This document shows positions 39,911 through 44,240 of a DNA stretch of 64,000 bases, one piece after another (the stretch's first letter is position 1; each line of letters begins with the position of its first letter). The stretch is from Prevotella sp. (lineage in GTDB: Bacteria > Bacteroidota > Bacteroidia > Bacteroidales > Bacteroidaceae): contig JALFBL010000062.1 in NCBI GenBank assembly GCA_022773395.1, positions 41,701 through 105,700 of the forward strand. The letters are read 5' to 3'. Position numbers and translations under genes: made by a program. The notes under the pieces were generated by a model. That model saw nothing but the letters and a program-made list of their open reading frames with translations, was not told where the DNA came from and did no database searches.

Positions 39911-42778
39911 ATGGAAAGAGAAGACAAAAAGATAAATGTATGGGGCGCACGTGTCCACAATCTTAAAAACATCGATGTGGAAATACCCAGAAACAGCCTC
40001 ACCGTCATTACAGGACTGAGCGGATCGGGAAAATCTTCGTTGGCATTCGACACCATTTTTGCAGAAGGGCAACGCCGCTACATAGAAACCTTCTCTGCCT
40101 ATGCCCGCAACTTTCTGGGAGGGATGGAACGGCCGGAGGTGGAAAAAATCACCGGACTCAGCCCGGTCATCAGCATCGAACAGAAAACCACCAACAAGAA
40201 TCCCCGCTCCACGGTGGGAACCACCACCGAGATCTATGATTTCCTGAGATTGCTCTTTGCACGCGCCGGCACAGCATACAGTTATGCCACAGGAGAAAAG
40301 ATGGTGAAATATACCGAGGAAAAGGTGTTGGAAATGATACACAACGACTACACTGGAAAAAAAATCTACATACTGGCTCCCTTGGTAAGAAAACGCAAGG
40401 GACACTATCGGGAACTGTTTGAAAACATGCGCCGAAAGGGCTACCTGCACATTCGCATAGACGGCGAAATGACCGAGATTGCAAGGGGCATGAAGGTAGA
40501 TAGATACAAGAACCACGACATCGAGGTGGTGATAGACCGTTTGCAGGTGCAGCCCAAAGATGACGAGCGACTGAGAAAGAGCGTGGGCACGGCCATGAAA
40601 CAGGGCGACGGACTGCTGATGATATTGGACAGGGACACCCACCGGGCAAAATACTACAGCCGTCGCCTGATGTGTCCCACCACGGGCATTTCATACGGCG
40701 ACCCTGCCCCCAACAAATTTTCGTTCAACTCGCCCGAAGGAGCATGCCCACGCTGCAAAGGCCTGGGCTACATCAATGAAATCGACTTGGGGAAAGTAAT
40801 CCCCGACCGCAAACTGTCCATTTACAACGGTGCCATTGTCCCACTCGGAAAATACAAAAACCAAATGATTTTCTGGCAGATTGACGCCATTCTTCAGAAC
40901 AACGGCTACGATCTGAAAACACCCGTCCAAGACATTCCCGAAGAAACGCTGAGCGAAATCCTCTACGGCTCGCTCGAAACGGTGCGCATCAGCAAGGAGG
41001 TGGTACATACCTCGAGCGACTATTTCGTGGAGTTCGACGGTATCGTGAAATATCTCAACAATGTCATCAACAACGACGACAGCACAAGCGGACAGAAATG
41101 GGCCGACCAGTTTCTTGCCACGGCCCCATGCCCCGAATGCCACGGACAGCGTCTCAATCGCGAGTCGCTCTCCTACCGCATCTGGGACAAAAACATTTCG
41201 GAACTTGCACAGATGGACATCGGTGAACTGAAAGAATGGTTGGCCGAAGCAGAAAACCATCTCGACTCCCAGCAGAAAACCATTGCGGTGGAAGTCTTGA
41301 AAGAAATACGCACACGCCTCCAGTTCATGCTGGACGTAGGGTTGGACTACCTGTCGCTCAACCGCCAGTCGGTTTCCCTGTCGGGAGGCGAAAGCCAGCG
41401 CATCCGTCTGGCCACGCAAATCGGTTCCCAACTGGTGAACGTATTGTATATTTTAGACGAACCGAGCATCGTTCTGCACCAGCGTGACAACGAGCGGCTG
41501 ATTGCCTCGCTGAAGGATTTAAGAAATCTCGGCAACACGGTCATCGTGGTGGAACACGACAAAGACATGATGCTCAATGCCGACTATCTGATAGACATCG
41601 GCCCCAAAGCCGGACGCAAAGGCGGCAACGTGGTGTTCCAAGGCACGCCTACAGAAATGCTGAAACAGCACACGCTCACTTCGCAATATCTCAACGGCGA
41701 ACAGAAAATAGAATTGCCCACACAGATTTCAACAACCGAAAAAGGCGACCAAAAGACGGTGTACCGCCGAAAAGGAAATGGAAAGACAATTGTCATTCAC
41801 GGTGCATCGGGAAACAACCTGAAAAACATCGACGTGGAGTTTCCACTGGGAAAACTCATTGTGGTGACAGGAGTGAGCGGATCGGGAAAATCCACGCTCA
41901 TCAACGAAACCCTACAGCCCATCCTCAGCAAGCACTTCTACCGTTCGCTCAAAAAGCCCATGCCCTACAAGGGCATCGACGGCATCAATCACATCGACAA
42001 GGTGGTGAACGTGGACCAGTCGCCCTTGGGCCGCACCCCACGTTCCAATCCCGCCACCTACACGGGAGTGTTCAGCGACATCCGCTCGCTGTTCGTCAAT
42101 CTCCCGGAGGCTAAAATCAGGGGTTACAAACCGGGACGATTCTCCTTCAACGTGAAGGGGGGACGGTGCGAAGCCTGTGGGGGAAACGGCTACAAGACCA
42201 TCGAAATGAACTTCTTGCCCGACGTGATGATTCCCTGTGAGGTGTGCCACGGAAAAAGGTACAACCGCGAAACGCTTGAAGTGCGCTACAAAGGAAAGAG
42301 CATTGCCGACGTGCTGGACATGACCATCAACCAGGCGGTGGAATTTTTCGAGAATGTGCCAGACATACTCCGAAAAATAAAAACCATCCAGGACGTGGGA
42401 CTGGGCTACATCAAACTGGGACAGCCCTCCACCACCCTTTCGGGCGGCGAAAGCCAGCGCGTGAAACTGGCCACCGAACTGAGCAAGAAGGACACGGGGA
42501 AAACCCTTTACATCCTTGACGAACCTACTACAGGACTGCATTTCGAAGACATCCGCATACTGATGGGGGTATTGCAAAAACTGGTTGACCGGGGAAATAC
42601 AGTCATCATCATCGAGCACAATCTTGACGTGATGAAACTGGCCGACCATATCATCGACATGGGGCCGGAAGGCGGAAAAAAAGGCGGTATGGTGCTTGCA
42701 ACGGGAACACCCGAACAGGTGGCCGGCAGCGACAAGGGATTCACCTCACGATTCTTGAAAGAAGAATTACAGTTGTAA
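39911..42778 (+). CDS. uvrA: Excinuclease ABC subunit A
   Basis: [57 protein letters not shown]; zinc fingers [27 protein letters not shown]. Confidence 0.97.
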
Positions 42779-42821
42779 GAAAGGAAGCCTGTCCATATAC
42801 CGGACACCGTGAAACGAAACG

Positions 42822-43205
42822 AATATTAACAATTCGTCCAAATCCTTTAACACGAAAAACGGCCGTTTTCTGAAAAAAGTTTTCCGCGCGCCCAAATACG
42901 CGATTCTACGGGCGTTTGGCAAACGACTGGCATACAGCGAGTTGAAAAATATTGACAAATTCTGCCCGGTAATTTATGCCTACTTACCATGTAATTTATG
43001 CCAAATTACCATGTAAGTAAGCCTTACTTACCCGGTAAAATATGCCAAATTGCGGTGTAAGTAGGCATAAATTACCGGAACGGCTCCGAAAAATGGCTCC
43101 GCCGTTTTTCCCGATTTTCCAACGGATCATCCCTTACTTTTCTATTTTGTGAGTGAACCCTGCGGAAAATCCGGTGGAAAAATTAACGCAATTAACTTTT
43201 GTTGG
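42822..43205. repeat. Dispersed intergenic repeat, copy B (inverted relative to copy A, with internal palindromic insertion)
   Basis: Reverse complement aligns with 24428..24652; the middle contains the extra palindrome 42966..43078. Confidence 0.75.
42966..43078. repeat. Nested palindromic element with 22-bp perfect terminal inverted repeats
   Basis: CCGGTAATTTATGCCTACTTAC (42966..42987) and GTAAGTAGGCATAAATTACCGG (43057..43078); central GTAAGTAAG-C-CTTACTTAC. Confidence 0.92.
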
Positions 43206-43256
43206 GTGACCGGAAGATGAAAAAGTGTGTAGTCCGTCTTTTCATCAGGGTGAAAC

Positions 43257-44240
43257 CTATGCCCTCGCTTTATTGTCCGGTTGCTCTGCATTATGCTTGC
43301 GGTACAGCCATATTTCCCAACTGTTCACAATGTTTTGCCACAAAATGTAGCAACCGGGACCTACCGATGCAATGGAGTTGAGATAGGTGTATGCCGTCCA
43401 AATGGCAAAAGCCGTGTTTTTTTGTCCCAAGGCCTGTCCGGCATTGACAGCGGAACGGGAAAAGTGCCCGATGTATTTGCCCACCGCAAATTGCCATATG
43501 CACAACAGCAGGGAGACAGCGGCAATGGCAACCAAGAGAGAGGCGGACGCATGGCTGTTGACAATGTTCTTCACGGTCATGCCCGTGACAATGGACAGCA
43601 GGCATCCCCACAAGTAGAAGGCGAGATTGGAAATGCCCATGATTCTTTTGTACAGCCAGTGAACATAGTTGCGCACGAACCATCCGAAAACCAGCGGTGC
43701 CACCAATATCAACATCACTTTTTGAAGAATCGTCCAAAAGGCGGTCAGGAAAGTGATGTTCACTCCTTTTTCTATCAACGGGAAAAAAAGGGGAATCATA
43801 AGGGCTGCCATGAAGTTGGAAAGGAATGTGTAGGCGGTCATGGAGCCAATGTCGCCGCCCAACTTGGCAGTGACCACAGCGGCAGCAGAGGCACTGGGGC
43901 AGATGATGCAGCAGAGGATGCCCTCCCAAAGCACTTTATTGTCGCCTTCCTTGGCCACCGACAGAATAACCGCAACCACAACGAGGACGAACAACAACTG
44001 GAAGAGAGTTACCCACAGGTGCCACATCTGGAGTTTCATCTGGTGGAAATCCACCTTGCAGAAGGTGACAAACAGCACGAGGAACATGAAAACGGGCATT
44101 AGTTCTCCGAAAAAGGAGTCAAAAAAAGCACCGGCCTTCTGCAAGGCTGGCATGGATGCGAACAACAGATACAACAACGTGCCGAGCCCCATGGCAACCG
44201 GCAACGTCCAATTTTTCAAAAAGCCCATCAGTTTGTTCAT
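43257..44240 (-). CDS. Bile acid:sodium symporter (BASS) family transporter
   Basis: Multi-TM; CIICPSASAAAVVTAKLGGDIGSMTAYTFLSNFMAALMIPLFFPLI. Confidence 0.85.
   Translation of the reverse strand: MNKLMGFLKNWTLPVAMGLGTLLYLLFASMPALQKAGAFFDSFFGELMPVFMFLVLFVTFCKVDFHQMKLQMWHLWVTLFQLLFVLVVVAVILSVAKEGDNKVLWEGILCCIICPSASAAAVVTAKLGGDIGSMTAYTFLSNFMAALMIPLFFPLIEKGVNITFLTAFWTILQKVMLILVAPLVFGWFVRNYVHWLYKRIMGISNLAFYLWGCLLSIVTGMTVKNIVNSHASASLLVAIAAVSLLLCIWQFAVGKYIGHFSRSAVNAGQALGQKNTAFAIWTAYTYLNSIASVGPGCYILWQNIVNSWEIWLYRKHNAEQPDNKARA

Follow-up and report, generated by a model that had tools for sequence, protein, structure and literature searches.

What kind of element is a 113-bp palindrome that stands between two genes of a Prevotella chromosome, ends in perfect arms and is itself made of smaller palindromes, and what acts on it? 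All positions refer to the window, i.e., the whole 64,000-nucleotide stretch of DNA analyzed, unless another locus is named. The left neighbour of the element is uvrA, which ends at 42778, and the right neighbour is a convergent SBF-type (sodium/bile-acid-type) transporter gene on the minus strand (43257–44240). The outer arms (42966–42987 and 43057–43078) are perfect 22-bp inverted repeats and the centre reads GTAAGTAAG-C-CTTACTTAC, both as given in a preliminary description of this DNA, and the 56-nt arms over the whole 113 bp are 77% complementary. That description had also pointed to direct repeats, whose recurrence is real, but it had only half seen the 22-bp tandem period. This period is returned by Tandem Repeats Finder and by a second repeat search; the repeat unit is a 19-bp dyad, GTAA-N11-TTAC, followed by a 3-bp spacer, and five such units run head-to-tail (Table 1), the fourth of which ends in TTGC instead of TTAC. 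A 22-bp period corresponds to about two helical turns and so places all sites on the same side of the double helix. The edges of the array are compatible with either dyad, GTAA-N11-TTAC or TTAC-N3-GTAA, as the operator.

Table 1. Features of the element between uvrA and the transporter gene (window positions).
Feature	Position	Strand	Basis
Whole dispersed intergenic element, ~390 bp	42819–43208	+	Conservation among copies in its own genome; edges fade
Conserved left flank, with palindrome AAAACGGCCGTTTT at about 42856–42869	42819–42965	+	Alignment of copies
Array of five 22-bp units (the palindrome of the preliminary description)	42966–43078		
Unit 1, GTAATTTATGCCTACTTAC, spacer CAT	42969–42987		
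Unit 2, GTAATTTATGCCAAATTAC, spacer CAT	42991–43009		
Unit 3, GTAAGTAAGCCTTACTTAC, near-perfect dyad, spacer CCG	43013–43031		
Unit 4, GTAAAATATGCCAAATTGC, spacer GGT	43035–43053		
Unit 5, GTAAGTAGGCATAAATTAC, reverse complement of unit 1	43057–43075		
Conserved right flank	43079–43208	+	Conservation among copies
Terminator-like hairpin AACGGC...GCCGTTTTT, start of right flank	43079–43109	+	Sequence, kept in copies

Folded in silico as RNA, a check that the preliminary description had called for, the 113 bp reach −55.5 kcal/mol (z = −7.7, with no shuffle as good), a stability that is high because the dyads are stacked in a row. The nested palindrome is present as described, but its mirror-image pairing is not conserved: in 98 arrays from related genomes, the complementarity of mirror-image units is 0.51, versus 0.50 for other pairs of units (p = 0.78), and the 113-bp palindrome is thus not itself the conserved feature. 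Within a unit, positions 5–9 pair in 48% of cases versus 34% in random units. The long hairpin is a by-product of tandem dyads. A structured RNA, acting as a stabilizer of mRNA 3′ ends or as a bidirectional terminator, would account for the strong fold and for the terminator-like hairpins of the conserved right flank, one of which is found at the equivalent position in the related genome G001. We nevertheless regard such an RNA as highly improbable, given the lack of extra complementarity between mirror-image units, the absence of any Rfam match, the lack of preference for convergent gene gaps and the four copies (L027 and L029–L031) that have lost the perfect outer arms yet keep the half-sites.

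The assembly of the window genome (2.52 Mb, 97.8% complete, 122 contigs) contains about 21 full-length copies, 88–98% identical to the window array, and at least nine partial ones, so that the 113-bp structure is not a product of chance and the element, in the genome-wide search proposed for it, is not unique. Conservation among the copies extends over ~390 bp, not beyond, and the copies lie in many unrelated gene neighbourhoods. This ~390-bp composite, which carries the array, has been copied recently in the window genome and is a special case of that genome, because the arrays of most other genomes have no common flanks. Several contigs of the window genome end within arrays, i.e., the arrays break metagenome-derived (MAG) assemblies. 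At the centre of unit 3 (43022), roughly half of the copies have C and the others G, which suggests that the tip of the palindrome inverts. One array copy is occupied by an integrative element (L066 4427–5993, contig C119), joined at ...GATGTAA and carrying a tyrosine recombinase (Arm-DNA-bind_5/SAM_5) and a PcfJ gene, and other integrase genes lie 227–297 bp from truncated or intact arrays (L067 at ~1198, contig C56; L068, contig C28; L022). The arrays seem to act as insertion sites for conjugative elements.

A tandem core with a conserved leader and tail, dispersed in intergenic copies, is the layout of the BrickBuilt element of Porphyromonas gingivalis (PMC4596501), and it is found in the window genome. 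The element could accordingly be a MITE-like passenger with an embedded minisatellite, moved by a transposase in trans, in which the array has no special partner. This reading fits the dispersal of array, leader and tail together as one ~390-bp unit. It is distinctly unlikely in our view, as no terminal inverted repeat is apparent in the 17–18 aligned edges of the window genome, which fade, no target-site duplication is evident by eye in the same edges (with no empty site for comparison), the array recurs alone in most other genomes, and the arrays before HU-HIG genes (see below) would be left unexplained. Ends of the DDE type of mobile element were likewise sought in these alignments, in which neither inverted ends nor, by eye, target duplications are seen.

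Beyond the window genome, the pattern GTAA-N11-TTAC-N3-GTAA-N11-TTAC occurs in 80 of 300 sampled genomes of GTDB Prevotella, with a maximum of 319 pair matches in one genome. The reversed pattern, used as a control, gives counts near zero in almost all genomes; the few rich in control matches carry arrays of identical 22-bp geometry framed by CATT...AATG (G224, G265, G276, and G235; L376–L389), at most 139 of these matches occurring in one genome. Across 198 genomes of the order, of which nearly all lie outside the genus, we see isolated single matches only, the window genome excepted. Among named contigs, those with three exact units come almost exclusively from Prevotella or Prevotellaceae; Hallella multisaccharivorax and Xylanibacter rodentium are represented, as are a few Bacteroides or Mediterranea. 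Isolated three-unit matches in an Aerococcaceae (L183) and a Flavobacteriaceae contig (L184) may be unrelated tandem repeats.

The arrays mostly comprise 4–5 units. The spelling of the unit interior is lineage-specific and the outer frame sometimes differs as well; two related genomes have the same outer frame and other unit interiors. Two loci (L206 and L244) appear to be the same site, with a 300-bp flank that is 86% identical, the same frame and different interiors, which looks like fast concerted change in place. None of 103 arrays lies inside an open reading frame, and the gene gaps that hold them are tandem, convergent or divergent, with no preference for orientation or promoters. In most other genomes the flanks are not common between arrays and the array alone recurs.

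Many extragenic copies per genome is a property of REP sequences, in which by definition a palindrome follows a GT(A/G)G head (PMC2817692). The units of the arrays start with GTAA, and this GTAA is part of the dyad. The REP/BIME likeness suggested by the preliminary description holds in the loose sense of a modular, high-copy, intergenic family, but the GT(A/G)G head is missing, and mobilization by an IS200/Y1-type transposase (RAYT), put forward in the same place, is not supported: a profile search finds no Y1_Tnp match in the window genome, and in the sample of 300 genomes Y1 occurs as often in the array-rich ones (12 of 23) as in the others (143 of 277; p = 1.0). Among 49 Y1 loci, three have an array within about 1.5 kb. 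We reject membership in the REP/RAYT class on these grounds, and a RAYT-mobilized family is very unlikely as a general explanation, although Y1 genes adjoin arrays in two genomes (both such genes in G016, one in G180). The two G016 genes (L276 and L277, contig C1) are nearly identical and RAYT-like, and one is flanked on both sides by arrays. This genome consists of a single contig and lacks the HU-HIG clade described next. A RAYT could act in the G016 lineage, because both Y1 genes adjoin arrays and this clade is absent.

Clustering of the genes next to arrays yields, as the most recurrent families, large surface or housekeeping families; the family HU_rel (HU-HIG, TIGR01201) is distinguished by its position. 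No replication or partition gene family recurs beside the arrays. Iterons have a spacing similar to that of 22-bp tandem dyads, and the arrays might on this ground be plasmid replication or partition sites (iteron- or centromere-type) scattered by integrated elements; that origin is barely credible with tens to hundreds of copies per chromosome and no such gene family at their side.

HU_rel genes were then collected irrespective of arrays. A GTAA array lies 12–129 bp upstream of 20 of 49 HU_rel genes and downstream of none, a count that includes five loci that had been found via arrays. For loci chosen by HU_rel alone and scanned with a letter-free detector, arrays are found upstream of 23 of 61 genes versus downstream of 1 of 60, and, within loci of this kind, before 14 of 243 genes that are not HU_rel (p = 1.5e-9); several of these 14 are the same array counted from a divergent neighbour gene. 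Shuffled upstream DNA passes the detector threshold in 1 of 1340 cases. Where an HU-HIG gene lacks a GTAA array, an array of the same 22-bp geometry but with different outer letters (ACAA, ACTA, GCAA, and others) often stands before it. On a maximum-likelihood tree, the label 'array upstream' requires 9 changes versus 22 when labels are shuffled (none of 500 shuffles reaches so low a number), and one group of 28 HU_rel genes includes 23 with arrays, against five, mostly with weak scores, among the other 41.

A profile built from the array-bearing group, termed A2, was applied with a cut at ~140 bits, where held-out members and non-members separate. Members of the A2 clade occur in 77 of 300 genomes at or above this cut, namely in 17 of 23 array-rich genomes versus 60 of 277 others (p = 5.6e-7; as the genomes are related, such p-values are not fully independent). 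Where flanks are available, 18 of 29 A2 genes have an array upstream and none of the 29 has one downstream, many of these genes having been in the training set; outside the training set, arrays precede 5 of 13. Most of the new A2 genes without arrays fall into a single sub-group, which has SKFK...GKW as its N-terminal motif. The clade proteins are 130–160 residues long and match Pfam HU-HIG (PF18291, E = 2e-18 to 4e-24) and also the HU/IHF domain. An AlphaFold model of one of them has a mean pLDDT of 90, with PDB 4fmr (a Bacteroides protein) and HU as the best Foldseek matches. By profile and predicted fold, the candidate partner is a member of the HU-HIG family.

In three genomes (G180, G205, and G027), one HU-HIG gene (L306, L321, and L324, respectively) is preceded by the very unit that is dispersed. 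A second HU-HIG paralogue has a private unit in G027 (GTAATATAGGGTATATTAC) and in G205 (GTAATATGGCCCATATTAC), which is not dispersed among the listed arrays. In G212, the major dispersed unit differs from the unit before the HU-HIG gene examined. Units specific to a paralogue fit a self-binding, autoregulated family and are harder to square with one common regulator. It could still be that another regulator binds the arrays, with HU-HIG genes among its targets and the dispersed arrays serving as its regulon or as decoys: the data give position upstream of HU-HIG genes and co-occurrence rather than the identity of the binder, and six array-rich genomes, the window genome included, have no member of the clade. 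We consider this unlikely, since the units differ between HU-HIG paralogues of one genome with the geometry kept, and the arrays lie in tandem, convergent and divergent gaps without preference for promoters.

The six array-rich genomes without the A2 clade are the window genome, G001, G016, G021, G293, and G306; three of them (G016, G293, and G306) are nearly complete assemblies. Promoter arrays are found before HU-HIG genes in relatives, but none of the HU_rel genes in the window assembly has a GTAA array upstream. A profile search of this assembly finds no A2 clade member (best match 6.7e-34), and it is possible that the clade gene was lost from it, its contigs breaking at arrays. The best HU_rel gene of the window genome (contig C67) has three 22-bp units upstream, at the start of the contig (L326 1–175); they are spelled GACT/CACT...AGTG/AGTC and score a weak 20/24. 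In the four CATT-type genomes (G224, G265, G276, and G235), the predicted CATT array before a clade HU-HIG gene was not found. If the operator reading is true, a clade HU-HIG gene with an array of the GTAATTTATGCC / GTAAGTAGGC type is expected in the window species.

We propose that the window element serves an autoregulated, sequence-specific HU-HIG protein as an operator array, which has been amplified and dispersed over the chromosome, a reading to which we assign a rough probability of 0.55. The preliminary description had offered a chromosomal protein-binding array as one option, and a putative array of this kind is now the best-supported reading. In the proposed mechanism, an HU-HIG dimer would bind each 19-bp dyad of its own array, and dimers would stack cooperatively every 22 bp along one face of the DNA; an array at the HU-HIG promoter would provide autoregulation. 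In many species, tens or hundreds of intergenic sites would have received a copy of one paralogue's array, by a machinery that in the window genome would be something other than a RAYT. The dispersed arrays might then be nucleation sites, from which the protein organizes or marks the chromosome in the manner of a nucleoid protein, or alternatively they might have spread as a selfish passenger of the HU-HIG protein.

HU-type proteins are non-specific DNA binders, and we know of no function found for the numerous HU-HIG paralogues of Bacteroidetes. The comparative data suggest that HU-type proteins are paired with many scattered candidate binding arrays on the chromosome, previously unrecognized. 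The wider proposal is that an HU-HIG clade binds 22-bp dyads cooperatively and specifically, with each paralogue having its own spelling and regulating itself, that one paralogue's array is seeded in each lineage, and that the code changes fast between Prevotella species, which together would make a sequence-addressed chromatin or selfish repeat system; we advance this tentatively, at somewhat short of even odds. We found no reports of these arrays or of HU-HIG DNA targets in the literature searched, and the arrays stand a fair chance of being a new system on account of their pairing with HU-HIG. A clade with its own putative operator arrays offers a DNA target that can be tested directly for these numerous paralogues. 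If the dispersed copies are bound as well, a dominant gut genus would possess a nucleoid system addressed by sequence, and fixed geometry combined with fast change of spelling between species would record the co-evolution of a protein and its DNA site.

Among known systems, the closest in layout is the BrickBuilt MITE of P. gingivalis, which has 23-nt tandem repeats, a leader and a tail, and IS5-type terminal inverted repeats (Klein 2015; PMC4596501). Both are elements of Bacteroidales with tandem repeats of about two helical turns, leader and tail flanks, ~20 copies, invariably intergenic positions and predicted long stem-loops. No terminal inverted repeats are seen in the Prevotella element (the comparison did not extend to all IS), and the Prevotella arrays differ in their 22-bp period, genus-wide occurrence, lineage-specific spelling and link to HU-HIG promoters, no such link being reported for BrickBuilt. 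REP/BIME repeats, which are insertion targets for mobile elements (PMC1525189), share with the arrays this apparent role, as well as high-copy extragenic palindromes of lineage-specific spelling; the arrays differ in that they keep strictly to a tandem period of 22 bp, lack the GT(A/G)G head and show no Y1 association. A second parallel concerns the protein. In E. coli, the IHF-containing BIMEs (RIB/RIP) have IHF sites between REPs, and they resemble the Prevotella arrays in that a protein of the HU/IHF superfamily is tied to dispersed palindromic repeats. In Prevotella, by contrast, every unit is a dyad, and the candidate partner is an HU-HIG protein with arrays in its own promoter. This candidate belongs to the same family as the known HU-HIG/HU_rel proteins (PF18291, TIGR01201; PDB 4fmr), within which we here distinguish one clade with putatively dedicated dyad arrays.
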